The translations under genes and the position numbers were made by a program. Shown here piece by piece: positions 7,059 to 64,000 of a stretch of 64,000 nt of DNA (its first letter is position 1; each line of letters opens with the position of its first letter). A model generated the notes under the pieces. The model searched no databases and was not told where the DNA came from. It was given only the letters and a program-made list of their open reading frames with translations. Source of the stretch: Pseudonocardia sp. T1-2H (GTDB taxonomy: Bacteria > Actinomycetota > Actinomycetes > Mycobacteriales > Pseudonocardiaceae); the NCBI RefSeq assembly GCF_038039215.1, contig NZ_JBBPCL010000001.1, positions 4,712,001 through 4,776,000 of the forward strand, in the 5' to 3' direction.

Positions 7059-7065
7059 GTGAGAC

Positions 7066-9783: not shown

Positions 9784-10122
9784 CGGAAATCCCCGTCCCC
9801 CGACGATGGTGCGCGGCCAATCGTCCTCCCGGTGTCGGGACGCGGTACAGCACCAGATGGGCCCCATCGCTCGGGAAGCGACGTCCTCGCGACGGCCCGG
9901 GCGAACTGGAGCCCGGCCTCACGCCGGACCCCAGCCGTGCCCGGCCGACCCACGGTCGGCCTACAACCGGGGAGCGGACGCGCAACCCGCGCGACGCGCT
10001 GCGAGCAGCTACGCCGCGCGAGGCCCTGTCCGAGTACCCGACGGCAGCCGCGCCACACCTCGCCGCCGTCCGCTGCGCCGAGCGGCAGCGGAGCGCCCGA
10101 GCAGGCCCTGACGGCCGCGGGC

Positions 10123-10716: not shown

Positions 10717-10937
10717 CGCCTCAGTCTGCGCGCTTCGCCCGGGGCCGTTCAGGCGCCGACCGGGGCAGCCGGACGGCCGAGATCCGGCCTCGCAGGTCCT
10801 TGACCACCGGACCGCGGCCTGCTGCTCGTTCCGCGCGCGACACGTGCTCCGCCGGGGCACCCGGGTCGAACAGGATCGAAGCCTGATCGCCTTCACGCGC
10901 ACGCTAACACCGCCTCGCCCACCGGCGAGGTCCGGAG

Positions 10938-12064: not shown

Positions 12065-12973
12065 CGCCCGGGAAGCTCCGACCGGCGGACACTGCTGATC
12101 TCGGTCGCGGCCTCGGCCGCCTTCGCGGTGCTCGCGCTGGCCTGGGGGCTCGTCACCGGATCGCAGCTGATCGTGTTCGACGGGTTGTACTCCTTCGCGA
12201 GCGTGGGCCTCTCGCTGCTCGCGGTGCTGGCTCTGCGCACCGCCCGGAAGGGGCCCGACCAGCGCTACCCGTGGGGTCGTGAGGTGTGGGAGCCGCTCAC
12301 CGTCGTGGTCAAGGCGGCGGCGCTCGGCGGCTTGTGCGTCTACGCACTCGTCGGCGGGGTCGCGGACCTCCTGGGCGGCGGCCGGGACGTGGAGGTCGGC
12401 TGGGCGCTGGTCTACGGCGCGGTCGCCACGCTGGGCGGCGCCGCCGTGACGGTGGTGCTGCGCAGGCGGCGCGCGAGGGGCTCCGACCTGGTCCGGGCCG
12501 AGGCCGCGGAGTGGGCCGGGGACACCCTGCTGAGCCTGGGTGTGCTCGCCGGCTTCGGGCTCGCGTTCGTGCTCGACGCCGCGGGCCGGGCCGACCTGGC
12601 CCGCTACGTCGACCCGGCGATGGTCGTGGTGGTCTCGGCGGCATTCCTGCCGGTTCCGGCCCGGCTCGTGGCGAGCGGCTTCCGCGAGGTGCTGACGATG
12701 TCACCGCCTCCTGAGCTGTCCGGCCGGCTCCAGGCCGTCGTGCGTGCGGTGGAGGACGAGCACAGGTTCGCCGAGTCGTTCGTGCGGGCGTCGAAGGTGG
12801 GCGGCCGGCTGGACGTGGAGATCGACTTCGTGGTGGCCGACACCTCCGCCGTGCAGACGGTGCGCGGGTTCGACGCCGTCCGGGCGTCGCTGCAGGAGCG
12901 GCTGGCGGAGCTGGGGCAGCCGGTGTCGATGTCGGTCGGGTTCACGGCCGACCGAGCCTGGGCCGCGCGGTGA
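12061..12973 (+). CDS. cation diffusion facilitator (CDF) transporter, 5' frame unclear
   Basis: The product has the CDF membrane domain (GSQLIVFDGLYSF with the metal-site Asp, about six helices) and a cytoplasmic tail, so it probably exports divalent metal ions such as Zn or Fe. The open frame by itself starts at a GTG at 12128, inside helix 1, which is too late. Upstream codons in that frame (SSDRRTLLISVAAS) look like the true N-terminus but lack a start. A GTG at 12061 overlaps the previous stop (GTGA) and would be the natural start if the CCC/GGG runs at 12067-12072 are miscounted. About 300 residues if so. Confidence 0.7.
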
Positions 12974-13300
12974 CCACTCCGCTCCCGTGGCCTCCCGGAG
13001 GCCGGTTCGGTGGTGGAGGACTCGCCGGGGAAGGAGCTTGCGAACGCCTTCGGTCAGGCGGCCGGCCATGCCAAGGTGACAGGAGGCCGGGGCCTCTCCT
13101 CACCCCCGACCTTCGCACCGAGCAGGGACGACACAGCGTGAACTCGCGGACGGACCACGCCGGGCTCGGGGTCCTCCCCGAGCCGTCACCCGTGTCGGGC
13201 GGAACGGGTCGGCGTAGCTCCCCGCGCCCGGGCCACCGGCCCGGCGGGCGGTTCGGGGACCGCGGACGACGAGCGCGTTCCGTGCGCGCCGGGGTGCGGA
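12974..13300 (+). other. intergenic region without a recognisable gene
   Basis: About 330 bases between the CDF transporter and the LuxR regulator. Frames on both strands are open in places because of the GC content, but none has a ribosome site, conserved motif or good codon signal. Probably promoter and leader of the downstream regulator. Confidence 0.4.
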
Positions 13301-14329
13301 GTGGCTGAGCCCGCTTCGGCCCGGCTGCAGGTGGCGGTCGAGGTGGCCGGGATCGCGGCCACGCCGGCCGCTATCGAGGAGCGGGCGGCCGCGCTGCTGG
13401 AGTCGCTGCGCCGGGTGCTGCCGTTCCAGGCCGGCTGGATCGCCCTGCTCGACCCGGAGCGCCGCCGGCTGGTACCCCTGGTGAGCCCGGGCTACGACGA
13501 CACGGCGCGCGCCTACCTCACCAGCCCGGCGGGCGTCGCAGAGATCGAACTGCTCGGCCTGGACCGGGCGCGCCCGCCGATGCGCCTGTGCGATTTCCCC
13601 GTCCCGCCCGGCGAGGTGCGCGGCTGGGCGGAGTACCTGCGCCCGGCGGGGTTCCGGGAGGGCCTCGGGGTCGGCCTGTTCGCCCCGGACGGCCGTCACC
13701 TGGGGCAGCTGACCCTGAACACGGAGAGCGCGGCGCATCCCACCGACGCCGCCCGGGACCTGATCGGCGTGCTCGCCCCGCTGATCGCACAGGCGGTCGA
13801 CCCGCTGCGCTCGGTCGCGACCGCCGCGCAGCTCGTCCACGGCGCGCTGGCCGGGATCGTGCTGACCCGCGCCGGGCACCCGCTGCCGCTGCCCGGGCTG
13901 GGCGCCCACCCGCTGCTGCGCGAGGACTCCGCGCTGCTCGCGGTGGCCGCCCATCTGGCCGACGGACGCGCGCACACGGTGTTCCTGTGCCCGCAGGCCG
14001 GGCCCGACGCGGCCGTCGGGTACCTCCGGGTGACCGTGCTGGCCTGCGCGTCGCAGCCCCCGCACCACCTCGTGGCGGCGGTGCTGGTGGCCCTGCCCGG
14101 GGACCTGCACGGTCTGACCCGCCGGGAGCTGGAGGTCCTGGGGCTGCTCATCGAGGGCTGGACCAACGCGCGCATCGCCGCGGCGCTGGTCATCGCGCCG
14201 CGGACGGTCGCCACCCACATGGAGAACATCCTGGCCAAGCTCGGCGCCGAGACCAGGGCCCTGGCCGCGGTCCGGGCCCTGGGCCAGGGCCTGTACGTGC
14301 CGCGGCCCCTGACCGGCGTGCAGGGGTGA
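13301..14329 (+). CDS. LuxR-type transcription regulator with N-terminal GAF-like domain
   Basis: 342 residues from a GTG at 13301. The N-terminal two thirds resemble a GAF sensor domain (FQAGWIALLDPERRR near residue 45, then a long alpha/beta region). The C-terminus is a LuxR/FixJ helix-turn-helix: LTRRELEVLGLLIEGWTN, then APRTVATHMENILAKLG, which is the DNA-recognition part. It has no receiver domain, so it is likely controlled by ligand or redox binding at the GAF domain. Neighbours give no target. Confidence 0.85.
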   Translation: MAEPASARLQVAVEVAGIAATPAAIEERAAALLESLRRVLPFQAGWIALLDPERRRLVPLVSPGYDDTARAYLTSPAGVAEIELLGLDRARPPMRLCDFPVPPGEVRGWAEYLRPAGFREGLGVGLFAPDGRHLGQLTLNTESAAHPTDAARDLIGVLAPLIAQAVDPLRSVATAAQLVHGALAGIVLTRAGHPLPLPGLGAHPLLREDSALLAVAAHLADGRAHTVFLCPQAGPDAAVGYLRVTVLACASQPPHHLVAAVLVALPGDLHGLTRRELEVLGLLIEGWTNARIAAALVIAPRTVATHMENILAKLGAETRALAAVRALGQGLYVPRPLTGVQG

Positions 14330-14505
14330 GAGACCGGCACCTCCCCGCCCGCCCCGACCGGGCGGATCGGTAGGTCTGCCGATGGACGCCGCCCGCCGGG
14401 CCGAGCAACCTCGACAGGTTCGGAGTCGACGGCTACCCGCGCCTGCAGCGCGGGTGGCGAGCAGCTTCCGCCGTCGACGCCGTCGCAACTGCCGGAGGTT
14501 CGCCG

Positions 14506-14763
14506 ATGAAGTCCCGTGGCACACCCGGCGGGTCGGCGCAGCCCACGACCACCCCGGCGGACGAGCGCATGGCGCTGCTGGTGCGCACCCTGTGGGGGTA
14601 TCGCGAACTCGGGTGCGACCTGGCCCGGGCCGCGGCCGCCCTCGGTGTCCACCGCAGCACGATGCGGTATCGCCTCTACCGCGTCCGCGAACTCACCGGG
14701 CACCACCCGGAAGACCCCGGATCCGAAGAGACACTGCACGCCATCGCGGGCCTGCACCCGTAG
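14506..14763 (+). CDS. stand-alone PucR-type helix-turn-helix protein
   Basis: 85 residues from the ATG at 14506. Almost the whole protein is the C-terminal HTH of PucR/CdaR regulators: LLVRTLWGYRELGCDLARAA followed by GVHRSTMRYRLYRVRELTG. Family members normally carry this domain at the end of proteins of 400-600 residues; here nothing of the sensor half is present. It could be a small natural DNA-binding protein or the surviving end of a deleted regulator. The 180 bp before it contain no gene. Confidence 0.7.
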   Translation: MKSRGTPGGSAQPTTTPADERMALLVRTLWGYRELGCDLARAAAALGVHRSTMRYRLYRVRELTGHHPEDPGSEETLHAIAGLHP

Positions 14764-14769
14764 TCGTGC

Positions 14770-15168
14770 TCACGGCCGCCGGCTCATCGCGCGGAGCGCG
14801 CTGTCGGTGCTGCGGTGGATCTCGAACAGCCGGTGCACGCCGCCGGCAGCGAGGGCCTGGGCCACCGGCCGGTCGACGGCGACCAGGTACAGGCCGATGT
14901 CGGCCTCGCCGGCATGGCGGGCCAGCTCGACCAGTGCCGCCACGGCGCCGGGGGCCAGGCCGGTCAGCGCCCGCAGATCCAGCACGACCGCCCACGGGGC
15001 CGCGTCCAGCAATCCGCGGACGAGGTGCTGGAACCCGGGCACCGCGGCGTCGTCGAGGCGGCCCTGGACGTGCACGCACGGCACCCCGGGCCGTAGATGG
15101 CTGAGGCGAACGGGCGAGCTGCTGCCCTCAGGCGCTGTAGACCCGTCACCGCCGACGCCGTATCCCAT
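14770..15168 (-). CDS. STAS-domain protein (anti-anti-sigma factor type)
   Basis: 132 residues from the ATG at 15168, which follows a GGAGGTGG site; the frame is open to 15432 but the extension lacks a ribosome site. The core is a STAS fold (VPCVHVQGRLDDAAVPGF, then AVVLDLRALTGLAPGAVAAL). Classical SpoIIAA-type antagonists have a Ser in the D-S-T/S-G segment; here the place reads LTGLAPG, so the usual phosphorylation Ser seems absent. Its role may be regulatory binding rather than a phosphorylation switch. Convergent with the PucR-type gene. Confidence 0.75.
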   Translation of the reverse strand: MGYGVGGDGSTAPEGSSSPVRLSHLRPGVPCVHVQGRLDDAAVPGFQHLVRGLLDAAPWAVVLDLRALTGLAPGAVAALVELARHAGEADIGLYLVAVDRPVAQALAAGGVHRLFEIHRSTDSALRAMSRRP

Positions 15169-15367
15169 CTGAGCCACCTCCTCGAAGCTTCCACAGCCGT
15201 CCTGTACCCCGTCGAAGCCGGGGTCACCAGCGATCGATGCGGGTCGGACAGGAGCAGGTTCGGTGCGCGCAGGACCGGACCATGCAGCCCGTCCAGGCCC
15301 GCCCGGCCGCGTGATCCAGGTCCGAACCCCTGATCCGACCGCCGCGGCAGGTGCGGTCACGGCCCCC

Positions 15368-53474: not shown

Positions 53475-53729
53475 GGCGCCAGTTCTGAACTTTTCGGAAG
53501 TCTGCGCAAGCGAACGCCTGGCGTGCAACAAGCCATCGACAGGCGACCGCCGAAAACCGGCAGCCGACACCAGCTGCATGCGCGTTCGACGGGTGCCGCA
53601 TCAGCCACGTTCCGCAGGTCTGCGAGGCCGCGGTCACCGCAGGCGTCGACGTTTCCGGGCACAATGATCTTGGAAGACGTTGCCGACGCAAGCACGCAAG
53701 GCTCTGACCTGTAGAAACAGTCGGCGGAG

Positions 53730-53804
53730 TGGGGCAGGTGGGGCTCGAACCCACGACCTGACGGATTATGAGTCCGCTGCTCTGACCAACTGAGCTACTG
53801 CCCC
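53730..53804 (-). tRNA. tRNA with CAT anticodon (Met, or Ile2)
   Basis: A full cloverleaf is read on the reverse strand: acceptor GGGGCAG/CTGCCCC, D arm GCTC/GAGC, anticodon stem GCGGA/TCCGT with loop CTCATAA, and T arm GTGGG-TTCGAGC-CCCAC, with discriminator A. CCA is not encoded. CAT can be elongator Met or lysidine-modified Ile; I cannot tell which without comparison. Its 5' end faces the integrated element, whose first gene (rep) ends 66 bp away. Confidence 0.92.
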
Positions 53805-53869
53805 TCTGAGCAGCGAAAACGGGCTATCCCGTCGGAGCCACTCAGCCCGAATCCGTTGCTGTCGTGGGT

Positions 53870-55114
53870 TCAATCCGAAGATCCACCCGAACGGCTCACC
53901 AGACCCGGCCCCCCGATCGTATCGAGCGGCTTGCTAGCCACTAGCCGGTAGTCCAACCCTCGGGACCTAAGCCAACGTTCAGCGGCAGGGATGCCGCCCA
54001 GCTCGACGGCGTCCAGGAGGTCCGCGACCTCGTCCCGTACGGCCTTCCACGTCTCGGCAGGAAGGGCTATCTGATCCTCACCATGCATGTCCTCGGCGGT
54101 GATCTCGTCGTCAGACTTCTCCCGGCCCACGCGGGCCCACTCCCGCAGACCACGGCTGTAGGTGACCTGACGCTTGCCCAGGCTGGTGGCCTCCCAGAGC
54201 CACCACAGTTCGATGCTGTCCGCGTCTCCCTGGCAGGCATCAGCCAGGATCTCGAACGCGGAGCGGGAGTCCCCTCGACCCTTCTTGGTAGCGGAGGAAG
54301 CCACCTCGAAGGCGGCCTTACTCACGTACTCGGCCACCTGCTCGATTGACTCGCCGGTCATGTGGATCGGCCGCATGTCCAGGCCACCCTTGTCGGCGAT
54401 GGCATGGAAGCCCTTGCGGGTCAGGGCACGCTCCCAACGGTGGAAGGCCCGATAGCTCATCTCGGCCATCATGTCGGCGCTCGTCAGCTCCGTGAACGTA
54501 ATGACGGCGTGTACGTGCAGGTGATGCCCCGTCACGGGGCTGTGGGTGTACTCGACGGTTCTAATCCACCCTCTGATCCCGAACGTCTCCTGATCCACCA
54601 CCCACCCACGGCCGGACGTGACAGAGCCCCAGGCGGCCGACAGAGCCGCCCACATGTCGCGGAGGGTGTCCTTACGGGAGTGGGACATGGTCAACGTCAG
54701 GAGGCCAGCAGAGCCTCCGGACTTGGCTACGGCAGTCAGGACGCCGGCAACGTCCTTAGCCCGCTGTGCGGCGATCCTCCGAGCGCATACCGGGCAGCTC
54801 CAGGGCGACCCGCACGACATCGTGCCCGCGATCCCTGCACGACGGCCCTGGTCCGTCTCAGACACCCGCAGCACGGTCCCGCCTACCGGGTTGACCGGCA
54901 CACGGCCACACGCCTTCAGGCGGTCAATCGACGTGAAGCCCTGAAGTCGACGGCGCATCCCGTATGCCTCGGCCCGACGGCCCCGCCGTGCCCGATCCAC
55001 GTCCTCGGGAAGAACCCGGCGTAGGTGCTTACCAAGAGGGCCGCCTTCGGCGGCCCGGCCTGCCCCTCCGGCCTTCGGCCTCGGGGCGGCCAGCGCCAGG
55101 CTGTCCCCTCTCAT
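53870..55114 (-). CDS. rolling-circle replication initiator (RepSA-like, HUH family)
   Basis: 414 residues from the ATG at 55114, which overlaps the stop of the translocase gene (ATGA). A zinc-finger-like Cys set (SPWSCPVCARR) precedes the three HUH motifs: LLTLTMSH (motif 1), HHLHVHAVI (motif 2, the HUH pair) and AEYVSKAAFE (motif 3 with the nicking Tyr). Such proteins nick the double-strand origin and start rolling-circle replication of AICEs such as pSAM2. GC is lower than in the chromosome. It is the last gene before the tRNA. Confidence 0.9.
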   Translation of the reverse strand: MRGDSLALAAPRPKAGGAGRAAEGGPLGKHLRRVLPEDVDRARRGRRAEAYGMRRRLQGFTSIDRLKACGRVPVNPVGGTVLRVSETDQGRRAGIAGTMSCGSPWSCPVCARRIAAQRAKDVAGVLTAVAKSGGSAGLLTLTMSHSRKDTLRDMWAALSAAWGSVTSGRGWVVDQETFGIRGWIRTVEYTHSPVTGHHLHVHAVITFTELTSADMMAEMSYRAFHRWERALTRKGFHAIADKGGLDMRPIHMTGESIEQVAEYVSKAAFEVASSATKKGRGDSRSAFEILADACQGDADSIELWWLWEATSLGKRQVTYSRGLREWARVGREKSDDEITAEDMHGEDQIALPAETWKAVRDEVADLLDAVELGGIPAAERWLRSRGLDYRLVASKPLDTIGGPGLVSRSGGSSD

Positions 55115-56241
55115 GCGGCAGCTCCACCGACACGACGGACGTAGTCCGCATACGGAAGCCACGGGGCCCGGACACGAGTGAGGCCCCGGCCTACGGCAGA
55201 CATCAGCGCGACGCCAGGGAGGGCAGTCGAGTGTCCGGCAGCCATAGCCGGATCAGCGTCGGAGTGCAGGAGCCTCACGGACTCCACGGAATCGCTCCGG
55301 AATGACAGCCGTAGCCCCAGCTGTGCCCTCTCGGCCCCGCCAATCAGATTCGCTTCCGGCCTCTGCACGAGCATGAAAACCATCATTCGTACCTTCCTGG
55401 CCTCTGCTAGCAGCCTGGCAACGTGCCCACGGACACGAGCGGCAACTTTCTTGTCCAGGGCGTCCAGGGCCCTAAGAGTCGCGGGCCATTCTTCGAGAAC
55501 GATTAGCGTTAAGGGGTGCTCATCGGTAATCGGCAGAATGTCGGATGCAATAGGCATCGCTTCTAGGCGATTGTCGAGATCCGTCACGAGGCGGTCTAAG
55601 GTCCGCTCGATTCGGGCAGGGTCCTTAAGGCCAAGGGAAATGTGTTCGGCGTGAGCCGTACCCGCGAATGGTCTAAGCGTGACTGACGAGGGGTCGACAC
55701 CTGCGATTCGGATAGGTTCACCAGCCTTAGCGCGTTCCGCTGCCTGAGCCAGGAGTGAGTATCCGAAGGAAGACTTCCCGGAGCCGGTTTGTCCGGACGC
55801 AATTGTGTGCGGCATCGTGTAGAGATCCGCCGTGACGTCCTGGGCCTCTTCGTCCCGGGCCAGCAGAACGGGGCCCGTGATAGGGCCACGAGGAAGGGTG
55901 TAGACGCCTGCCAGCGGATCGGACGCTAAGAGCGTGATCACGGCATAGGCACCGTGGCCCCTAGATTCGACTCTGAGGCTGTGGCATCCCAGGTGCGGGC
56001 ACAACCGGTCCGCTAGGTCCCGCACATCAGCCGCAACCATTCCGGGCTCCAGACGAACCGTGAGGACCGTCTGGGCGCCGAGAACGATATACACGATCTC
56101 GGGGACCAGCTCGGAGCTACCGACCACACTCTCAATGCGGCGGATAAGTCCGGCGCCACGGCAGGCCCTATCCCAGGCGTGCACAATCGCGTCCACCTCA
56201 GCGTTATCGGCAATATCGGCCTTATCGCGGCACCTGAACAC
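55111..56241 (-). CDS. FtsK/SpoIIIE-type DNA translocase (TraB/TraSA-like)
   Basis: 376 residues from a GTG at 56241 with a GGAGGAATT site. Walker A is SGQTGSGKSSF; Walker B is TLIVLEEWP. The family's EARKVRMMVFMLVQRPEANL segment and a later GVALMSAVG turn are present. In AICEs a single FtsK-like TraB moves double-stranded DNA between mycelia. Length is close to TraSA-type proteins. Translationally coupled to rep downstream; a strong hairpin separates it from the Pra-like gene upstream. Confidence 0.9.
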   Translation of the reverse strand: MFRCRDKADIADNAEVDAIVHAWDRACRGAGLIRRIESVVGSSELVPEIVYIVLGAQTVLTVRLEPGMVAADVRDLADRLCPHLGCHSLRVESRGHGAYAVITLLASDPLAGVYTLPRGPITGPVLLARDEEAQDVTADLYTMPHTIASGQTGSGKSSFGYSLLAQAAERAKAGEPIRIAGVDPSSVTLRPFAGTAHAEHISLGLKDPARIERTLDRLVTDLDNRLEAMPIASDILPITDEHPLTLIVLEEWPATLRALDALDKKVAARVRGHVARLLAEARKVRMMVFMLVQRPEANLIGGAERAQLGLRLSFRSDSVESVRLLHSDADPAMAAGHSTALPGVALMSAVGRGLTRVRAPWLPYADYVRRVGGAAA

Positions 56242-56272
56242 AATTCCTCCTCACGGTTTTGGACAAACGAAA

Positions 56273-56301
56273 GGGCCCCGCCCCATTAAGAGGCGGGGCC
56301 C
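56273..56301 (-). terminator. strong hairpin between the pra-like and translocase genes
   Basis: A 10-bp stem (GGGCCCCGCC with GGCGGGGCCC) and 9-base loop sits just upstream of the translocase start on the reverse strand. It may terminate or attenuate transcription from the Pra-like gene into tra-rep. Confidence 0.6.
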
Positions 56302-56320
56302 AGTAGGGAGCGGACTAGGC

Positions 56321-56701
56321 TTAGGCGGCCTTGTTGTCCGCCTTAGGGGCCTGAGCCTGGCCCTCGATTCCGTCGGCCCGCATGGAAAGAGCCACACGGC
56401 CACCCTGGTCCACGTAGGGGACCGCAACGAGGTTCACGAACCTGACCGGCTGCCACTTAGCCGTCTTCGGCTCGTCCCACGAGGAGACACGGATTCCAAC
56501 AACCTCGGCACGGTCTGCGTCGGGGTCGTCGACCAGGACGTCGATCACCCAGACCGGGACGCCAGTGTCGTCCTTAGCCTGGTTTCCGGACCGCTTACGG
56601 GAGCCATCGGCCAGCTCCACGTACTCGGCACGAGCGGCAGCCTTACCGGTGCCGATCAGGGCAAAACCGGGACGGTTGGTGTCAACGGGAATGTTCCTCA
56701 T
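56321..56701 (-). CDS. Pra-like AICE regulatory protein (tentative)
   Basis: 126 residues from the ATG at 56701 (GGAGAAGACTGCC upstream). The central part (KDDTGVPVWVIDVLVDDPDA, then VRFVNLVAVPYVDQGGRVAL) resembles the pattern in proteins annotated as plasmid replication, integration and excision activators (Pra) of AICEs. In pSAM2, Pra turns on replication and excision. The match is from memory and not strong. The position upstream of tra and rep fits such a role. Confidence 0.5.
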   Translation of the reverse strand: MRNIPVDTNRPGFALIGTGKAAARAEYVELADGSRKRSGNQAKDDTGVPVWVIDVLVDDPDADRAEVVGIRVSSWDEPKTAKWQPVRFVNLVAVPYVDQGGRVALSMRADGIEGQAQAPKADNKAA

Positions 56702-56865
56702 GGCAGTCTTCTCCTGGGATGTGTTTGTGTGTGGGTTTGGCGGCATTGCCGCGATGATGCGTGGTCTAAGACCACATCGAATGACCCCGCAGGGCAGATA
56801 TTGCTACTCGCGATTACGTAAGTGGAATCGAGGGGCTTAGCCCGGAAGCTAAGCGGCCGTAAGCG

Positions 56866-57087
56866 TTATGCGGCTAAGGACCGGTCCGGCATCTCGTCGG
56901 GGTGCAGTAGTTCCGCACCGGGGACGTCGGCACCGTGGACGGCACAGAACACCTGATCCCACGGCTCCCGCTCGTTCACCACCACCAGGACAGCCGGGGC
57001 CTCGCAGAACTCGCAGAGGTCCGCATCCGGGTCGGGCACCTCGTCGTGGACGTGGACAGGAGTCCCGGGACAGCCGTGCCCTCCCAC
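56866..57087 (-). CDS. small Cys-containing protein of the element
   Basis: 73 residues from a GTG at 57087: VHVHDEVPDPDADLCEFCEA, then VFCAVHGADVPGAELLHPDE. The CEFC pair and the CAVH pair suggest a small zinc-binding fold. Its first third overlaps the end of the following gene in another frame. Codon composition favours this frame in the overlap, so either the two genes overlap by 112 bp or a frameshift joins them. Confidence 0.55.
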   Translation of the reverse strand: MGGHGCPGTPVHVHDEVPDPDADLCEFCEAPAVLVVVNEREPWDQVFCAVHGADVPGAELLHPDEMPDRSLAA

Positions 57088-57455
57088 AGAACCCCATCGG
57101 TCGCGCGCCCGTTCAGGGCCACAGCCTTACCGCCCGGCTTCGTGGCCGTGCTGTAGATCCGAGCATCCCGGGTGATCTCCACCGTGACGTCCTCGTGGAC
57201 GATGGTCGTCCCCGCCTTCACGTCCTCGGCAGGCACCGTGTGCGGCGCGTCGAAGACCTCGGCTTCCATGGCCTCACAGACACGCTTGCCCTCATCGGTG
57301 AGGACGACGTCCGAACCGGCCTCCACGGCCAGGCCACGGGACACGAGGGCCTTCCGGGTAGCCGGGGCAACCTTCCTGTTCGCCCCGAACATGGCGGCGA
57401 TCATGTGAGTGGTCAGCTTCAGCCGCTTAGCGGTCGGTGTCTCGTGGTGCTCCAT
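56976..57455 (-). CDS. hypothetical protein of the element, unclear 3' end
   Basis: Up to 159 residues from the ATG at 57455: MEHHETPTAKRLKLTTHMIA, then FGANRKVAPATRKALVSRGL and LTDEGKRVCEAMEAEV, resembling a winged-helix start. The last about 37 codons in this frame read as Ser/Thr/Arg-rich nonsense, while the neighbouring frame (previous entry) looks coding, so the true product may end or change frame near 57090. Divergent from the GntR-type gene, whose operator may lie between them. Confidence 0.55.
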   Translation of the reverse strand: MEHHETPTAKRLKLTTHMIAAMFGANRKVAPATRKALVSRGLAVEAGSDVVLTDEGKRVCEAMEAEVFDAPHTVPAEDVKAGTTIVHEDVTVEITRDARIYSTATKPGGKAVALNGRATDGVLWEGTAVPGLLSTSTTRCPTRMRTSASSARPRLSWWW

Positions 57456-57557
57456 CGTGGGCCTCCGTGGCTAGGTGATCCGATCTGGTCACCGAAGCTA
57501 CATGACCCAATTGGGACAAGCAACAAGCGGGTCAGGTAAACCGCTAAGGTGCTGGTC

Positions 57558-57782
57558 ATGCCCACAGGTCAGTACGAACGGCGATGGCAGGTCATCGCTG
57601 CTGACCTACGTGCCAAGATCCAGGCTGGGCGCTGGCAGCCGGGCGACAGGCTGCCTCCCATGTCACAGCTCCAAGAGGAGTACGACGCGGCCAAGGGCAC
57701 CGTGAGGTTTGCGATCAACGCGCTACGAGACGAGGGGCTAGTGACCCCCCGTACCGGGTCTGGGATCTACGTCAACGGTTAG
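57558..57782 (+). CDS. short GntR-type repressor (KorSA-like)
   Basis: 74 residues from the ATG at 57558 (a GTG three codons upstream is possible). The whole protein is a GntR winged helix: RRWQVIAADLRAKIQAGRWQ, DRLPPMSQLQEEYDAAKGTV and RDEGLVTPRTGSGIYV. There is no ligand-binding domain. In AICEs such as pSAM2, KorSA of the GntR family represses pra and so keeps the element silent. Its divergent position to the reverse-strand transfer genes fits. Confidence 0.8.
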   Translation: MPTGQYERRWQVIAADLRAKIQAGRWQPGDRLPPMSQLQEEYDAAKGTVRFAINALRDEGLVTPRTGSGIYVNG

Positions 57783-58049
57783 AGGGAAGCCACGGGCCGG
57801 CCACACGAGCTCGCGGACCTCGTCCAGGGGAAACGTCTCGCGCCGTTGTGCGAGACATACAAGCCATGCCCTCCGGGCGGGGCCTCTGCTCCCGGGTGGC
57901 CCCGCTACCCGCCCTCTTCCGGCCCACGAGGGCTAGCACGACCACGGCAGGTCCCGCACGGCTGGCATCTCGGGCGCCGGTCCCGCTCGTAAGGTGCGGG
58001 ACCTACCGCGCCCGTGCCAGGGCTACGCCGCCGAAAGCGACCGGGTAGC
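57783..58049. promoter_or_regulatory. 267-bp non-coding segment with inverted repeats; possible origin or transfer locus
   Basis: Two inverted repeats are seen: GTCTCGC (57835-57841) with GCGAGAC (57850-57856), and AGGTCCCGCAC (57949-57959) with GTGCGGGACCT (57994-58004). The sequence GGTCCCGC occurs again between the arms at about 57979. No coding frame is supported. Such structures in AICEs mark replication origins or the transfer site (clt); which one applies here is unknown. Confidence 0.5.
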
Positions 58050-58562
58050 TCAGTCGTAAGCCTCATAGTTGTGGAAACGACGACGGAACCGCCCCACCGG
58101 GCGATCTTCTCGCAAGACGCCGTCAGCCCGCCGCCGCCAGACGGCTCCCGAAGCATCCTTAAATGTTATCGCCAGCAGCGAATCTTTCTTCAGGCCGACA
58201 TCACTGAAAACGAGCTTCTCGCCTGGACCGAGGACCTCAGCGAAACCGCGTTGCAGACCTACAGGCCCCCATCCCTCAGACGAATCATAAGCACACAGTA
58301 GGACATAGTAGATTGGCAGACTACTGTAGTTGTGCGCGGTGTACCGACCGTTCACAGAAGGATCGCCACTTATTACGATGCCATCAGAAAAACGGACCGT
58401 ATTCCGCCTCAGAATGATCTGGCTGGCCTGCTTGCTGTGGTTATCCGCCACTTGCTGTCGATATACCTTTGCCGCAACGGCAAGGGCTCCTACCGTGCCT
58501 ATCGCAGCGAACCAATCGGCGAGATTCCCAGTAACATCCCAAACGCTAATGGGGTCAACCAC
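58050..58562 (-). CDS. hypothetical protein with N-terminal membrane helix
   Basis: 170 residues from an ATG at 58562. An N-terminal hydrophobic stretch (DWFAAIGTVGALAVAAKVY, about residues 16-34) is followed by a soluble domain with ISGDPSVNGRYTAHNYSSLP and GPGEKLVFSDVGLKKDS. This architecture is common among uncharacterised actinobacterial proteins that have one membrane anchor and an immunoglobulin-like domain. GC is lower than the chromosome. Function unknown. Confidence 0.65.
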   Translation of the reverse strand: MVDPISVWDVTGNLADWFAAIGTVGALAVAAKVYRQQVADNHSKQASQIILRRNTVRFSDGIVISGDPSVNGRYTAHNYSSLPIYYVLLCAYDSSEGWGPVGLQRGFAEVLGPGEKLVFSDVGLKKDSLLAITFKDASGAVWRRRADGVLREDRPVGRFRRRFHNYEAYD

Positions 58563-58638
58563 CCTGTTCCTCGTTCAGCTCTAGTGTTCGCCACAGCGAA
58601 GCGATGTAGGCGCCCACCCATCGGCCCAAAACAGTTCT

Positions 58639-58776
58639 TCAGTCTCCAAATAAGCGGACCGGAACGGCGTCCTCGTGAAGATCAATGCCGTAAATATCCG
58701 AGATGGTGAACGCTACGTCGTCGGGGCCGACACACAGCCATGCGGATAGTTCGTCAAGCGTCATAGTCATCGCCAT
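58639..58776 (-). CDS. 45-residue protein coupled to the upstream small gene
   Basis: ATG at 58776 with an AGGTGAG ribosome site that overlaps the stop of the upstream gene. The product is acidic: MAMTMTLDELSAWLCV, then GPDDVAFTISDIYGIDLHED, ending RLFGD. The start and tight spacing support a real small gene. No family known. Confidence 0.5.
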   Translation of the reverse strand: MAMTMTLDELSAWLCVGPDDVAFTISDIYGIDLHEDAVPVRLFGD

Positions 58777-58778
58777 AG

Positions 58779-59006
58779 CTACTCACCTAGCCGGAGGTGA
58801 ACCCAGCGAGGGGACTTAGACGGTTCCCGGAGCGTCGGACCTAGCCGGAGATCCTGAGCGGCCAGCATCGTCGCACAACGGGCGTAGCCCTCCCGTAGCT
58901 CCACACCTCGTCGCACCTCGACCCCTCGACGGACGGTCCAGGCCCACTCTCGGAGGCCCATACGACGGACGAGGGTGGTCACCGGCAGATCATCCACGAT
59001 GGGCAT
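58779..59006 (-). CDS. small basic hypothetical protein
   Basis: 75 residues from the ATG at 59006. It is Arg/Leu-rich and contains repeated segments VRRGVEVRRGVELREG. Ends 2 bp before the start of the 45-residue gene. The two probably form a small operon. Function unknown. Confidence 0.5.
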   Translation of the reverse strand: MPIVDDLPVTTLVRRMGLREWAWTVRRGVEVRRGVELREGYARCATMLAAQDLRLGPTLREPSKSPRWVHLRLGE

Positions 59007-59048
59007 CCTACGGCTAACGAACGCCCGCCACGTGACGACCTCAAGCTC

Positions 59049-59455
59049 ATGGAACCAGTCATTCTCACAGCTGCATTGAATGTGGCTACTGCCGCGTTGA
59101 GGATTGCGGCAATCCTAAGCGATATAAAACGTGCCGCTCTCGGCATTGCGATTATCGCGTTCAGCGTCCTCGGCCTCGCCTGTCTGCTGTTGTCCGGCCT
59201 GGTGATATCCAACGAGTGGTGGCGCTCGGTAATGATAGAACTCGGAGTGGGACTGATCTTCGCCGGAGTGATTGACCTGGCAATTCTCGGCTACATCGGA
59301 AGAATAGTGAAAGAGAGTGAGTCGTCCGGTCGAGGCTTACGCTTCAAGCCCCCGCCCTCTCAGACAGTCAGATTGCCAGCATCAATGAGCTCTTGCAAAC
59401 TGGCCTAGTGGACGAGGTGCGCTTCCAGCGCCAATCTCCAGAATCCGCTGCTTAA
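59049..59455 (+). pseudogene. small membrane protein with a C-run frameshift
   Basis: The ATG at 59049 opens a frame for a protein with two or three hydrophobic helices (about 5-25, 28-53, 60-85). At the five-C run 59349-59353 the frame turns to nonsense, while with one more C it continues SDSQIASINELLQTGLVDEV to a stop at 59453-59455, about 135 residues. The C-terminal part looks clearly coding. Function unknown; the next gene encodes another membrane protein and starts 29 bp later. Confidence 0.55.
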
Positions 59456-59484
59456 CCCCACCGTTCCTAAGCGAAGAGATTTCT

Positions 59485-60123
59485 GTGGCAGGAACGATCA
59501 CGTGGTGGGACGCCTGGAGACTCTGGTTCAGCGGCCAGGAGGTGGACACCCAACTCAGGCTGGGGCCGTGGTCGATCCTCTGGTGGGGCCGGGTTGGCAA
59601 GATTGCGAGCTTTCTCGCCGGAGCCACAGTCGTTCTCGACCTCATTGGGCATGAGCGACTCCGAAGAATAGGTGAGACTTTGCCGAAACCTAACCCCGCT
59701 CGCAATCTCGGCTATTTTCTCGTCGGAGAGAACTTCGAGCTTTTCGATTGGAGGGTGACGCCTGATCCGACCGCTCGGCTCTACAAGGACGGCGTCCCAG
59801 TACCCATCAAGTTGTCCCCGCGAGCCAAGGCAACCTCTTTGGTCCTAGCGATTTTGTCAGTCCCGGTGACGTTAACGGTCCTGGTGCTTCTACCGACATC
59901 CTGGTGGATAGACATTATCCTCGCCCTCCCTGTCTACTGCGTAACCTTCTTCGTAGTAGGGCTCATTTTCTCGTCCGTAGTTGCGACTATCGTCTCGATT
60001 CCTGCATTTCTCCTTCTATCGGTGGCCCGGACTCTCGCATCTAAAACCCCCGGTCAGGCGCTGCGATACCTAGCCCTGGTTCTTCTAGTCACAGGCTTCC
60101 ACTTCGACCTACTCGCCTCCTAG
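59485..60123 (+). CDS. membrane protein of the element, unknown function
   Basis: 212 residues from a GTG at 59485. One hydrophobic helix occurs near residues 40-55 and two or three long helices in the C-terminal half (about 115-135, 138-180, 195-208). A soluble central domain has FELFDWRVTPDPTARLYKDG. Same strand as and close to the frameshifted membrane gene, so likely an operon. Convergent with the terminase-type genes: its stop overlaps the end of the 95-residue gene by 4 bp. No family recognised. Confidence 0.6.
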   Translation: MAGTITWWDAWRLWFSGQEVDTQLRLGPWSILWWGRVGKIASFLAGATVVLDLIGHERLRRIGETLPKPNPARNLGYFLVGENFELFDWRVTPDPTARLYKDGVPVPIKLSPRAKATSLVLAILSVPVTLTVLVLLPTSWWIDIILALPVYCVTFFVVGLIFSSVVATIVSIPAFLLLSVARTLASKTPGQALRYLALVLLVTGFHFDLLAS

Positions 60124-60407
60124 CGAGCCTCCCGGTCCTCGGGGAGACTTGCGGCCAGGGCCAAAAAATCAGCCAGGGTCGTCCCTAGTTCCTGCATAAC
60201 ATCTAACGTCCGTACGTCCTGGTGCTGATTATCCCTTAGCCATTCGGCAAGTTCGTAGTGATAGCGGTGGAATGATTCGAAAGCCTGATAGGCCCGAGTC
60301 GAGGAATCCGACTCAGGATCGAGGGCGATTACCGGCGTATAGAACCGTTCCGGCAGGTTCTCGGGAACCCTGGGCCTTAGCTGAGATTCACGAATCCGTA
60401 CCGCCAC
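60120..60407 (-). CDS. hypothetical protein downstream of the terminase-like gene
   Basis: 95 residues starting at a GTG near 60407 that overlaps the end of the terminase-type gene by 20 bp. Sequence is acidic and helical (ESFHRYHYELAEWLRDNQHQ, MQELGTTLADFLALAASLPE). Overlap implies co-translation with the small terminase. Function unknown; it could be a partner of it. Confidence 0.6.
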   Translation of the reverse strand: MAVRIRESQLRPRVPENLPERFYTPVIALDPESDSSTRAYQAFESFHRYHYELAEWLRDNQHQDVRTLDVMQELGTTLADFLALAASLPEDREAR

Positions 60408-60768
60408 GGCGGGCCTCCCAAGAAAGGTTTCCGAGCCGACGGAAGTATTCCGACGTTTGTGCAGCGCGCTCTAGGGCGCGTTCCTCATCATCCGGTAGGG
60501 ATAGCTGACGCATGTAGCGGGCGTATGCGTCCCCGGCAACTCGCATTTCAGCAATTAGCGGGTTAATCACGGGCTGCTTCATAGAACCCTTAACCGTGTA
60601 CTCCGGATCTGCATTGAATACCGACCGTAGCTCCGCGATCGTGTCTAGCTGACGACAGGCCAGCTCCAAGACCCGAAACTCATCAGACCTGAGCTGTAGC
60701 TTTTCATCGTTGACTACTTCGTCCCAAAGGGAGCCACCGGCGTAGCCGAGGTCTGCGGGCTTGTCCAT
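60388..60768 (-). CDS. phage terminase small subunit, P27-like
   Basis: 126 residues from the ATG at 60768. The N-terminal half LWDEVVNDEKLQLRSDEFRV, then LELACRQLDTIAELRSVF, and the conserved middle YTVKGSMKQPVINPLIAEMR follow the P27-type small terminase pattern (TVKGS-x-x-QP-x-x-NPLI), ending with RQLSLPDDE. Small terminases recognise pac/cos sites and direct packaging. No large subunit, portal or capsid gene is nearby in this window. A perfect 8-bp-arm palindrome lies 25 bp upstream. Confidence 0.8.
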   Translation of the reverse strand: MDKPADLGYAGGSLWDEVVNDEKLQLRSDEFRVLELACRQLDTIAELRSVFNADPEYTVKGSMKQPVINPLIAEMRVAGDAYARYMRQLSLPDDEERALERAAQTSEYFRRLGNLSWEARRGGTDS

Positions 60769-60792
60769 TAATTGTCTCCTAGAATGGTGAAT

Positions 60793-60810
60793 GGACCATT
60801 AGAATGGTCC
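60793..60810. promoter_or_regulatory. palindrome upstream of the terminase-like gene
   Basis: GGACCATT-AG-AATGGTCC, an exact 18-base palindrome 25 bases before the terminase-type start. No T-run follows on the reverse strand, so it is more likely an operator or packaging-type site than a terminator. Confidence 0.5.
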
Positions 60811-60912
60811 TTTTCTTGAAAATTGGGGCTCTGTTCGTTCACCGAGTGGCTTTCCTGCTATACGAGCCGAGCAACAGGGCCACCGGAGGGGTCCCCCCGT
60901 AGGGAGCCTTAC

Positions 60913-61209
60913 CTACTGGCGGCCAGGGTGCCGTTCCGGTCCACGCATTCTCAATTCACGCTTTCGTTTCTGTGCATTCATTCCTTCACGACTCGACTTC
61001 TGTGCGTGACAATTCGCACAAGCTGACTGAAGATTGGATTCGTCATTTGTTCCTGAACGCACAATGTGATCAACCTGATTCGCTCTGCCTGTGCACTTAG
61101 GTCCACGAATCAGACACTTATAGTTGTCACGAATGAGAACGCGCTTGCGGATGCGAGCCCAATCCCTCGGCAAAGAATCCCTTCGATTCGATGTACTCCA
61201 ACCGGCCAT
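60913..61209 (-). CDS. HNH endonuclease
   Basis: 98 residues from the ATG at 61209. It shows a typical HNH core: IRKRVLIRDNYKCLIRGPKC, ANQVDHIVRSGTNDESNLQS and ACANCHAQKS, with the catalytic DH, the Asn, and the last His, plus two Cys pairs for zinc. Phage HNH proteins next to terminase genes are needed for packaging-type DNA cleavage in several phages (HK97, phi-like). The terminase-like gene starts 145 bp downstream on the same strand. Confidence 0.88.
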   Translation of the reverse strand: MAGWSTSNRRDSLPRDWARIRKRVLIRDNYKCLIRGPKCTGRANQVDHIVRSGTNDESNLQSACANCHAQKSSREGMNAQKRKRELRMRGPERHPGRQ

Positions 61210-61266
61210 GCGTACATTCCTCGGTATTGGTGTGGGTATGGGCCTGGCAGTAGTACAAGCCCTCGG

Positions 61267-61515
61267 CTACCTGACGGCGTGGGTCTTAGCTTCCCGCCAG
61301 GCGTCAACACTGGCGGCCACATCGAAGAGCGCCACCCATTGTCGATTAAGATTAGCCAGCTTCTCGACATTGTCCGGCTCACTCGCACGAACACGCCTAA
61401 TCTTGTTCAATAGTCGACCCTGAGCCAGCATCAGATATCGGCAGAATTCACAGCAGAAATTGCTCTCCCGGCAGGGGTCAATAGTTCCTGGGCACCCCTC
61501 TCGACGACAGTCCAC
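61267..61515 (-). CDS. Cys-rich small protein
   Basis: 82 residues from a GTG at 61515. The N-terminus has CRREGCPGTIDPCRESNFCC and EFCRY, six Cys residues that probably bind zinc, followed by a helical tail (NKIRRVRASEPDNVEKLANL). Phage and plasmid elements carry similar small zinc proteins. Located just upstream of the HNH gene on the same strand. Function unknown. Confidence 0.6.
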   Translation of the reverse strand: MDCRREGCPGTIDPCRESNFCCEFCRYLMLAQGRLLNKIRRVRASEPDNVEKLANLNRQWVALFDVAASVDAWREAKTHAVR

Positions 61516-61546
61516 GGGGTCTCTCCTTAAGTAGTTGGGTGGGGGA

Positions 61547-61583
61547 ACGAGAAAGGGGCCCCTCGGCAGAGAGGCCCCCTCGT
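61547..61583 (-). terminator. stem-loop between the Cys-rich and excisionase-like genes
   Basis: Outer arms ACGAG/CTCGT and inner arms GGGGCC/GGCCCC form a stem with a small internal bulge. It lies between the excisionase-like gene and the Cys-rich gene and probably ends or attenuates transcription. Confidence 0.6.
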
Positions 61584-61678
61584 CGTCAGACGTGCTAACA
61601 GGCGGGAAGTCCCTGGGTGAGGACAGCCAGCCTCTAGGGCAATAAGGAGGTTCTCCTTCCTCTAACAGGGTTTACCTC

Positions 61679-61903
61679 CTAGCCGATTGGCAGGAGGGGC
61701 TTTCGGGGAGTGACCAGCTCCAGGAGACGTTCCACGCTGTAGAGCGGAATCCCGGCGGTCTTAGCGTCCGGGTAGTGATAGCCCGCTACGTCGAGTACTC
61801 CACGTTCCTGCCAGCGCGCTATCCGGCGCGGGGCATTTCGAATGCGGAGGAGGCTCACGGCCTCATCTGACGTAACGAGCGTGGGTAGGTCTGAGTCGTC
61901 CAT
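61679..61903 (-). CDS. excisionase/MerR-like helix-turn-helix protein
   Basis: 74 residues from the ATG at 61903. TSDEAVSLLRIRNAPRRIAR followed by WQERGVLDVAGYHYPD and PLYSVERLLELV is the winged-helix pattern of excisionases and small MerR-type proteins that bind DNA and bend it. An integrase gene is not in the window, but AICEs usually encode Xis beside Int; here Int may lie further right. Role in excision is inferred. Confidence 0.65.
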   Translation of the reverse strand: MDDSDLPTLVTSDEAVSLLRIRNAPRRIARWQERGVLDVAGYHYPDAKTAGIPLYSVERLLELVTPRKPLLPIG

Positions 61904-62030
61904 ATTTCTCGGTTTCAAAGTCGCAGGTAGGAGGGTTTCCCTTTTGGCTCATTCGCTCTCTAAGGGCCTAGAATCTCGAGCTAGGGTGGTTGTACCGGGC
62001 AGGCCGGCGCGGGCCTTAGAAACGGCCTCA

Positions 62031-62056
62031 GGGGCCTGGTTTGTAGGCCAGGCCCC
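62031..62056 (-). terminator. hairpin terminator after the 246-residue protein gene
   Basis: A 9-bp stem GGGGCCTGG/CCAGGCCCC with an 8-base loop begins 11 bases after the stop of the upstream gene on the reverse strand. Confidence 0.7.
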
Positions 62057-62066
62057 CCCGGGTCGA

Positions 62067-62807
62067 TTAGTCCACGTCAATTGAACGGGCGAATGCGTCA
62101 GCCGGGGAGACGAGGTTAAGCGTCCCGCCTACCCGGATGATTCCCACGTGCGGAGCTAGGCCCCCGAGGAACAGACCACTATCGCCACGCGCATAGGCAC
62201 GGTGCAGCTCCACGGCCCTGAGGGCCTGGGCCTGGTCCTCGAACGAACCGAGGCGGGCCACCGTGAGGGCCGCCGGTCCAGCCTGCTTCTGAACCCCTAC
62301 CTCGTGCCCCTCAGCCTTCATGAGGGCCGTATATGCGGCCCATGCCTTAGCCAGCGGTACGACGGTCTGCTTAGCCTCCAGGAGGGCCGCTGAAACATCC
62401 GGCGAGATATCCAGCAGTCCCATGCCAGAAAGGTCGGGAATCCGCTCCACGACGGACACGAAAGCGGGTACAGCCGCGTTGTACTTGTCGCAGACAGCGG
62501 CAAAGAGTCCGTCCAGGTGCGGAGAGACTGCCGTACGTAGGGCACGCTCTCGGGCTGAACCGACATGTCCGGCCAGAACCTCCGGCAGCATCTGCTTAAT
62601 CACCGCCGCGTGGGCCAGCTCCAGGACCGCCTTGTCAAACGCCCTCTGGTCCTTGGCCGCTGCTAGAGCTTCCTCAGCCTCATAAGTCGTCGGATGCGTA
62701 ACCCTGAAGCTGCTTCGCTCTACGGCCGTGCGGATCTCATCCGGAACCGGAATGTCCAGAGCGGCGAAGGTGGAAACGATCGAACGTGCATCGTGGATAA
62801 GTGCCAT
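62067..62807 (-). CDS. hypothetical protein of the element
   Basis: 246 residues from an ATG at 62807 with GGGAGAAAATAC upstream. It is mostly helical and Ala-rich (FDKAVLELAHAAVIKQMLPE, VSAALLEAKQTVVPLAKAWA), without Cys clusters or membrane segments. Size and composition would suit a phage-type scaffold, head-associated or regulatory protein, but nothing specific matches. It follows the 131-residue gene after 13 bp. Confidence 0.6.
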   Translation of the reverse strand: MALIHDARSIVSTFAALDIPVPDEIRTAVERSSFRVTHPTTYEAEEALAAAKDQRAFDKAVLELAHAAVIKQMLPEVLAGHVGSARERALRTAVSPHLDGLFAAVCDKYNAAVPAFVSVVERIPDLSGMGLLDISPDVSAALLEAKQTVVPLAKAWAAYTALMKAEGHEVGVQKQAGPAALTVARLGSFEDQAQALRAVELHRAYARGDSGLFLGGLAPHVGIIRVGGTLNLVSPADAFARSIDVD

Positions 62808-62820
62808 TGTATTTTCTCCC

Positions 62821-63216
62821 TTAGACGTTGTTTAGACGGCGCCCGCCGTTGCGGGCGATATCGCGTAGCATTCGGTTAAACTGACCTTCGGCGGTATCAA
62901 AGTCCGCAAAGGGTGAATCTTCGACAGTCGAAACTCCCAGGCCCTGGGACGGATCGTAAGCCATTCGGCGCCACGATCCGTCAGGCTGTCGGCCGCCCGA
63001 CTCGATATGGTCGGGAATCTCCACCGTGACAGGCTGTCCCTTATTAAGCTGAGCCTCGATAACGGCGCGTAGTTCGGCCTCAGGGTCAGAGTCGGTATCC
63101 GGATTAGCGTCAGCCGATGCCTGAGCTACATCCTGAAGGGTAATCGTCCGGTTAAGCTGAGCCCGGATAACGTCATTAAACGCCTGAAGCTCTGCCGGAC
63201 TCGGTCCGCTAGTCAT
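62821..63216 (-). CDS. hypothetical protein, probable operon partner
   Basis: 131 residues from the ATG at 63216, which overlaps the stop of a 30-residue ORF (ATGA). Helical and acidic, with two similar Gln/Asn-containing segments (AFNDVIRAQLNRTITL and RAVIEAQLNKGQPVTV) that look like an internal duplication. It is followed closely by the 246-residue gene. Function unknown. Confidence 0.6.
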   Translation of the reverse strand: MTSGPSPAELQAFNDVIRAQLNRTITLQDVAQASADANPDTDSDPEAELRAVIEAQLNKGQPVTVEIPDHIESGGRQPDGSWRRMAYDPSQGLGVSTVEDSPFADFDTAEGQFNRMLRDIARNGGRRLNNV

Positions 63217-63305
63217 GCCTTACTCCTATCGTCGTCAATTAGTCGGCGCAGCCACTCAGCCAATTCTTGCCGGTCGTATTCCGGCAGTAGCCTCACCCAA
63301 AGCAT
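63213..63305 (-). CDS. 30-residue translationally coupled ORF
   Basis: ATG at 63305, four bases after the stop of the 55-residue gene; TGA overlaps the next start. Product MLWVRLLPEYDRQELAEWLR plus ten more residues. The amphipathic, protein-like sequence and the ATGA coupling support it. Confidence 0.45.
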   Translation of the reverse strand: MLWVRLLPEYDRQELAEWLRRLIDDDRSKA

Positions 63306-63309
63306 TATC

Positions 63310-63477
63310 TCAAGTAGCGTCACAATCGCATTCCCCGTTAGGGCCGCAGTCATAGGCCCGCGTCATCAAAACGTCATTGATACTCGACACGAGGTGCGGC
63401 GACTTGTCGGGACTCTTTCGGAGCGCGATCAGCTCTTGGGTGGACATGCTCTCCAGGATTGCATCGGCGATAATCAT
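63310..63477 (-). CDS. 55-residue protein with a Cys-rich tail
   Basis: ATG at 63477 with a TAGGAGACACC site. The product begins MIIADAILESMSTQELIALR and ends with AYDCGPNGECDCD, a metal-binding-like Cys cluster. The ribosome site and tight arrangement with the next two genes support it. No family known. Confidence 0.5.
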   Translation of the reverse strand: MIIADAILESMSTQELIALRKSPDKSPHLVSSINDVLMTRAYDCGPNGECDCDAT

Positions 63478-63516
63478 TGGTGTCTCCTAATTGTTGGATT
63501 GAAACGGGGGGCTAAC

Positions 63517-63726
63517 TCAGTCGTCGGTCTTCAGGTCCCGAACGTCGACCCTCAGGGCCTGGGCCAGCTTTGCCAGATTTTCGTGGTGGGGCTTGCGTAG
63601 CCCTGTCATGTATCGATGGATCGCCACATCGGAAAGTCCGATCTTTCGGGCTAGCTGGGCCTGGGAGAGTCCGGACTTATAAATGGCCGCACGGATCTTC
63701 GCCGTATCGGCAGGGTTGTTCTTCAT
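63517..63726 (-). CDS. XRE/Cro-type helix-turn-helix regulator
   Basis: 69 residues from the ATG at 63726. KIRAAIYKSGLSQAQLARKI, then GLSDVAIHRYMTGLRKPHHE is a standard XRE HTH of phage and plasmid repressors. It is first in the reverse-strand chain that leads to the 55-, 30-, 131- and 246-residue genes and may control it. Confidence 0.82.
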   Translation of the reverse strand: MKNNPADTAKIRAAIYKSGLSQAQLARKIGLSDVAIHRYMTGLRKPHHENLAKLAQALRVDVRDLKTDD

Positions 63727-63826
63727 CGTCACCCCTTACGGGTAATAGGTAGTTGGTCGGTAACAACCTGGGCATGCCGAAGAGGCCCCATCCCAGGATG
63801 GGAGGGGGCTAAGCCTGAGCTGTGGG

Positions 63827-63859
63827 GGACCGGCCTTACCGAAGGAGTAAGGCCGGTCC
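63827..63859 (-). terminator. perfect hairpin between the XRE gene and the partial gene
   Basis: A 13-bp perfect stem (GGACCGGCCTTAC with GTAAGGCCGGTCC) with a 7-base loop. It follows the stop of the partial gene (63908) on the reverse strand. Confidence 0.75.
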
Positions 63860-63907
63860 GGCTGACATCGCGGAGCGTGAACGTTCTACCGTCCCATCCA
63901 TAGGGAA

Positions 63908-64000
63908 TTACGGTGACGCTAGGGCTAGTTCCTTCTCGGCCTTCCTGCGTGCCCGATAGTCACGAGACTTCTGCCTGTTCCGTGCCCTCTGGCAGTCGAG
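63908..64000 (-). CDS. 3' end of a basic protein (partial)
   Basis: The reverse-strand frame is open at the window edge and stops at 63908-63910. The visible 30 residues (LDCQRARNRQKSRDYRARRK then AEKELALASP) are strongly basic, as in the C-terminus of phage zinc-finger or endonuclease VII-like proteins. The rest lies outside the window; identity unknown. Confidence 0.5.
   Translation of the reverse strand, partial: LDCQRARNRQKSRDYRARRKAEKELALASP

Follow-up and report, generated by a model that had tools for sequence, protein, structure and literature searches.

A tRNA-inserted Pseudonocardia element that combines AICE-type genes with a small terminase, an HNH endonuclease and a candidate cos site

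The window analysed here, a stretch of 64,000 nucleotides from a 6.64-Mb contig within the 7.0-Mb genome of a soil Pseudonocardia, holds genes of conjugation type next to genes of phage packaging type. This raises the question of whether the two sets belong to one mobile element and, if so, by which routes that element could spread. A preliminary description of the window had suggested movement both by conjugation and by the hijacking of a helper phage. AICEs of the pSAM2 type carry an integrase with an att site in a tRNA gene, an HUH Rep, an FtsK-like translocase, a Pra-like protein and a GntR regulator, and in these elements the FtsK-like protein moves the circle between cells. To our knowledge, AICEs do not include a small terminase (TerS), an HNH endonuclease or a cos-like site.

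The element begins at a 39-bp att sequence (53766..53804), which is the 5' half of a minus-strand tRNA-Met gene (53729-53804) and spans the anticodon. An unchanged copy lies 3.9 kb beyond the window, at window-frame positions 67871-67909 (L001:5871-5909). The element thus occupies 53766..64000 of the window and extends to window-frame 67909, with an att-to-att length of 14,105 bp. A scan for sequences matching at least 24 of the 39 positions found these two copies only, and none between the parts of the element. One tyrosine integrase was found within the element (window-frame 66872-67768, outside the window), so that, as in AICEs, flanking att sequences in a tRNA gene are combined with an own integrase. 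The G+C content of the element is 0.61 against 0.69 and 0.71 in the flanks. In a relative, G026, an intact tRNA-Met gene is directly joined to a right flank that is 91% identical, a junction that we read as an unoccupied site; on the left, the tRNA-Met gene itself is the sole part shared with G026. Because att covers the 5' half of the tRNA gene, the DNA upstream of the gene is now that of the element, which replaced the former upstream region. TerS, HNH and the conjugation-type genes are all located in this one att-bounded element.

The genes closest to the left att, all on the minus strand, code for an HUH rolling-circle Rep (53870..55162; PF01446, 47.5 bits against a cut-off of 33.2), an FtsK-like DNA translocase (55111..56241; PF01580, 44.9 bits against a cut-off of 24) and a Pra-like protein (56321..56746). 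The Pra-like label is weak, as the protein scored 35 bits against the NCBIfam SCO3933 family, for which the cut-off is 80; the gene is, however, kept beside FtsK and Rep across the genus. A 159-aa protein with no assigned function (56976..57455, minus) adjoins this cassette and has relatives in genomes G051 and G038, and a short GntR-type DNA-binding protein of 77 aa (57549..57782, plus) matched PF00392 above the cut-off. The FtsK/SpoIIIE-type translocase and the plasmid-type replication initiator, both above the cut-off, are those of an AICE; of the Pra/GntR pair that regulates AICEs, GntR is above its cut-off and the Pra-like protein below. The FtsK-like protein also showed a weak match to a large terminase family (E = 0.001), which we take for the common ATPase fold. 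Its closest plasmid relative (39%) is on pPA43082 of Pseudonocardia autotrophica. This plasmid, typed as non-mobilizable in PLSDB, has GntR, Pra-like, FtsK and Rep genes in the same order as the element but is annotated without a terminase or HNH gene.

Three cargo ORFs follow (58050-58562, minus; 59049-59408, plus; 59485-60123, plus), for which we found no Pfam match above the cut-off, no PADLOC match and no relative in the 23 loci compared; a search for defence cargo gave no convincing match among 10 proteins. To the right of HNH, and also on the minus strand, lie the genes for two short proteins with no family above the cut-off (61267-61515 and 61679-61918), a 246-aa helical protein (62067..62807), a 131-aa protein (62821..63216), an HTH_3 regulator (63517..63732; PF01381 above the cut-off) and a 197-aa protein whose C-terminal part is in the window (63908..64000, running to 64501). 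The 246-aa protein, with a low-confidence structure model (mean pLDDT 59.7), matched itself and one other protein when searched, and has relatives in the TerS loci of G046, G039, G051 and G038; relatives of the 197-aa protein also occur in other TerS loci. Beyond the window, iterons (window-frame 65154-65372), formed by five copies of a 20-nt and five of a 13-nt repeat, adjoin the gene for an O-like initiator (window-frame 65372-66091; PHROG 678, E = 2e-7).

TerS (60388..60768, minus) matched PHROG 1496, "terminase small subunit" (E = 2.4e-15). Against Pfam Terminase_4 it remained under the cut-off of 24.7 bits (19.1 bits, E = 0.0018), and it had no NCBIfam match, no match on PLSDB plasmids at E 1e-3 and, when its profile was compared with solved structures, nothing meaningful. 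The HNH endonuclease (60913..61209, minus) matched Pfam HNH above the cut-off (E = 2.2e-7) and PHROG 333 (E = 1.1e-34), and is related in sequence to the HNH endonuclease of solved structure 5h0m (E = 4e-5). Profile matches of differing strength, weak for the Pra-like protein and under the Pfam cut-off for TerS, thus bear out the neighbourhood first described, in which TerS and HNH stand beside HUH Rep, FtsK-like, Pra-like and GntR genes. The profile scans took in 20 of the 21 listed element proteins, all except one of 132 aa, and among these 20 TerS was the sole clear head-and-packaging match; no large terminase (TerL), portal, capsid or tail gene was found. The absence of TerL, portal and capsid genes reported for the window therefore holds for the scanned proteins of the whole element, whose right end, up to 67909, contains the integrase and gave no capsid match. 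A complete prophage would possess these genes, and a capsid-forming PICI its own capsid and head genes, of which the element has none in a genome without PF05065. Packaging-redirecting genes, TerS and HNH, without a full head and tail set are, on the other hand, a trait of phage satellites.

Relatives of TerS were found at 45 loci in viral contigs of IMG/VR. By our reading of the locus table, a TerL match comes after TerS in 44 of the 45, and 43 have a portal match; the only locus without TerL stops soon after TerS. An HNH relative precedes TerS in 23 of the 45, a count in which many loci start near TerS and so hide the upstream part. The element has HNH upstream of TerS, as do many related phages, and it retains this pair, with a 95-aa protein (60120..60407, minus) replacing TerL at the following position; relatives of this protein adjoin TerS in G046 and G051. 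Because TerS of phages nearly always precedes TerL, we counted the presence of HNH and TerS without TerL in favour of a satellite packaging module. Among the first 20 other TerS loci, a relative of this HNH was detected only in L025, a phage-like locus of another family. Five relatives of TerS are 56-72% identical to it, one of them labelled Pseudonocardia; the closest named relative is that of Pseudonocardia sp. RS010.

The gap between HNH and TerS contains a candidate cos site (60854..60898, minus) of the form GGGGGGACCCC-N28-AT/AGC, with a predicted cut between 60860 and 60859. Three complete phages with TerS relatives, Bernal13, Mendokysei and Footloose, have a cos-like motif at the ends of their linear records, which we took as physical ends. 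With the end of each record joined to its start, Bernal13 and Mendokysei show GGGGTGACCCC and, after a further 29 bases, T/AGC at the junction; at the Footloose record end the block is weaker and T/AGC follows it after about 28 bases (spacings counted by eye). Footloose also has HNH, record end and TerS in the order of the element; unlike the element, Bernal13 carries TerL, portal, capsid and tail genes. In L025, the block and CGTATAGC precede TerS, 31 bases apart. With one mismatch, the gap in the element matched the motif GGGGTGACCCC-N27..31-[AT]TAGC, which was picked after the element was compared with the phages. No such match arose when the gap was shuffled 20,000 times; at two mismatches, 2 of 2,000 shuffles matched. 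This was the only one-mismatch match in the 82 kb of the window and its continuation, and when the pattern was relaxed to include the base present in the element, the 7.0-Mb genome had a single match, at this position; a backward control had none. By sequence, the element thus possesses a cos-like motif of its own, and an own pac or cos site is a trait of phage satellites.

The motif was also searched for upstream of TerS in 28 of the 45 viral loci, taken from a list that did not include all of them, with at least 200 bases before the gene; none had served to make the motif, and Bernal13 and Mendokysei were excluded. It was found with one mismatch in 4 of the 28 and in none of 200 shuffled sets, and with two mismatches in 11 of the 28 against a shuffle mean of 0.05; in these 28 loci neither the opposite strand nor the region downstream of TerS contained it. 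Both strands of 2.44 Mb of other fetched genome loci gave one one-mismatch match, which is L025. Plain local alignment was weak, with best p values, both uncorrected, of 0.035 against the phage ends and 0.010 against L025. When 15 TerS loci were scanned at two mismatches, the motif was present only in the element, L025 and L031, and it was absent before TerS in the six other TerS hybrids or candidates scanned, L024, L030, L038, L039, L041 and L042. L026, L029, L033 and the hybrid L042 resemble the ends of the Mycolicibacterium aichiense records described below, and the hybrid candidates L038 and L039 those of Bernal13 and Mendokysei. Shared k-mers before TerS exceeded the shuffle mean, partly owing to related pairs.

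Two kinds of SaPI each share a part of this arrangement. According to PMC8569155, pac-type SaPIs have their own TerS for their own pac site, as the element has its own TerS, and SaPIbov5, which has no TerS, carries the cos of its helper and changes capsid size by means of a capsid-protein homologue; the element differs from both in that TerS, HNH and cos occur together and with a conjugation-type cassette. The cf-PICIs, according to PMC10690885, code for HNH, TerS, TerL and capsid genes; the element resembles them in the first two but lacks TerL and own capsid genes. The 11-kb phage records OR387110-121 of M. aichiense share with the element an integrase and a TerS of the same family, and end in a cos-like GC block before TerS, but have their own capsid genes. 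Three of these (OR387116, OR387121 and OR387110; L043, L044 and L045), with integrase, TerS, capsid and tape measure and no annotated large terminase or portal, look like capsid-forming satellites. We found no hybrid between an AICE and a satellite or terminase module among the papers listed by a literature search, which covered titles and abstract openings, and subscription journals thinly; such a hybrid is likely new.

We give about an even chance to the reading that the packaging module of a cos-type satellite has been joined to a backbone of AICE type, made up of HUH Rep, FtsK-like translocase, Pra-like protein, GntR and tyrosine integrase, and that the product could spread by two routes. 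Both conjugation and packaging of the element we infer from the sequence. The FtsK-like protein would move the excised double-stranded circle from cell to cell. The satellite part would consist of the packaging start, formed by HNH, the cos-like site and TerS, with the O-like initiator and the iterons. By analogy with SaPIs and cf-PICIs, HNH, cos and TerS would select element DNA for a helper TerL: as a helper cos phage grows, TerS and HNH of the element would bring its TerL to the cos site of the element, and unit-length element DNA would enter helper capsids. The gene order shared with pPA43082 speaks for this reading; the typing of that plasmid as non-mobilizable, the lack of Rep relatives in viral contigs and the absence of the motif before TerS of the six other hybrids or candidates speak against it.

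The idea of spread by both routes was only partly sustained, with the cos-like site between HNH and TerS speaking for it and, against it, no matching helper phage found in the strain, whose genome gave no second TerS match. Genome-wide, the profiles for TerL (PF03354) and capsid (PF05065) gave no matches, and that for portal (PF04860) a single one, on another contig. A complete prophage adjoining the element, named in the preliminary description as an alternative source of the phage genes, was seen neither with these profiles nor in the ORF list beyond the right att. A phage-like contig of the same assembly, G000:C2 (103,993 bp; L046-L050), carries TerL, portal, head protease, major head and ParB-like genes and may be a phage-plasmid. 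A role for it as the matching helper is unsupported, as its TerL belongs to other PHROG families and it has no TerS match.

TerS relatives were present, counting the element's own genome, in 21 of 199 near genomes, 18 of the 62 genomes of the genus and 30 of 393 of the class. Rep was matched 35 times, fragments included, across 28 of the 62. In 6 of 17 same-genome pairs (G000, which is the element's genome, G009, G023, G038, G051 and G053) TerS was within 10 kb of Rep, against about 0.05 expected. Five further att-bounded elements pair an FtsK-like gene with TerS, capsid, prohead protease or TerL, and four of them also carry Rep and Pra. They have TerS in G038 (att of 44 bp, tRNA-Pro); TerS and an HK97-type capsid in G053 (19 identical bp as part of a longer match, tRNA-Arg); TerL (PHROG 9, E = 2e-32) and a Phage_tail_S protein in G039 (36 bp, tRNA-Arg); capsid in G028 (36 bp); and TerS and prohead protease in G018 (42 bp, tRNA-Lys), where the FtsK-like protein is a different one, under the Pfam cut-off, and the element's Rep is absent. 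A second integrase lies just beyond the right att in G053 and G039. Positions 1402-15244 of locus L056, on G039:C10, hold a Rep-FtsK-Pra element between att sites that also codes for a large terminase, a Phage_tail_S protein and a ParA-like protein.

The gene order of the element recurs in two further strains, G038 and G051. G051 has a serine integrase, however, and no att repeat was found; it was kept on synteny alone, outside the att-bounded count, from which G009, G023 and G037 were also left out for want of an att match. The cassette is either in line with the integrase (G000, G038 and G051) or facing it (G053, G039 and G028). The other fetched Rep loci, of at most 20 kb each, had no match to the profiles for TerS, TerL, portal and capsid. 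PF01446 was detected in 11 of 49 TerS-bearing genomes, all of the same genus; Rep had no relative in viral contigs, and Rep profile A2, run without a positive control, found none in 34 TerS-bearing genomes outside the genus. The element's genome has two more Rep-FtsK-Pra cassettes (G000:C1 2857670-2858893, L052, and 1377468-1378646, L059), with no TerS match in the fetched stretches.

We tentatively propose, at somewhat less than an even chance, that Pseudonocardia holds a dual-mode class, in which AICEs were repeatedly joined to packaging or head genes from differing lineages of phage satellites and which would spread both by FtsK conjugation and in cos-packaged helper particles. In G053 and G028, the capsid genes could serve to alter the size of helper heads or to form heads of their own. 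When the hybrid label was placed on trees, it required 6 changes (gains or losses) on each of those of TerS (6 hybrids, with G009 and G023 included), Rep and FtsK (7 hybrids, with G023 included), and well supported branches force 5 of the 6 changes. Shuffled labels were clustered to no lesser degree, and few alignment columns underlie the TerS tree. The trees fit repeated joining, with origins neither dated nor counted.

Possibly, though this seems unlikely, the element is a phage satellite that does not conjugate and uses a plasmid-type Rep-FtsK-Pra cassette for replication or maintenance only. Its conjugation is a prediction from gene content, large mycobacteriophages encode distant relatives of the short FtsK-like protein, and small plasmids bear the same genes. 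Most other fetched Rep loci of the genus, however, have the cassette without TerS, capsid or TerL, as expected for a stand-alone conjugative backbone. It is less probable still that TerS and HNH are inactive passengers left from a prophage. TerL, portal and capsid are indeed gone, but the reading frames are open, the five TerS relatives are 56-72% identical, the cos-like site is retained beside both genes and TerS without TerL is seen again in other att-bounded elements. Slightly behind stands a role of TerS and HNH as anti-phage weapons that spoil packaging or cut phage DNA, in an element that is not itself packaged. HNH has weak matches to nuclease parts of defence systems, of which ZorE is the strongest (E = 1.7e-6); the PHROG 333 match and the neighbouring genes agree far better with an HNH of phage packaging, and defence has no need of a cos-like site. 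Insertion of an AICE and a satellite side by side in separate events, the other alternative named in the preliminary description, is conceivable in G009, G023 and G037, which have no detected att pair and a phage gene beyond the Rep end, but for the element it is ruled out for practical purposes by a single att pair around both parts, without an internal copy, by the one integrase found and by the same order in G038 and G051.

Conjugation requires cell contact; packaging reaches distant cells within the bounds of capsid size and phage host range. If the fused AICE-satellite reading is true, the element may use both cell-to-cell transfer and phage particles for its spread, which would blur the border between conjugative elements and phage satellites. 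Repeated fusions within one genus would make selection for having both routes testable, and the predicted cos cut is exact to the base and directly testable. Finally, in another genome of the set, contig G048:C3 (24,228 bp; L068 and L097) is filled by two copies of a Rep-FtsK-Pra unit about 12.1 kb apart, as would result from an assembly that runs twice around an extrachromosomal circle.
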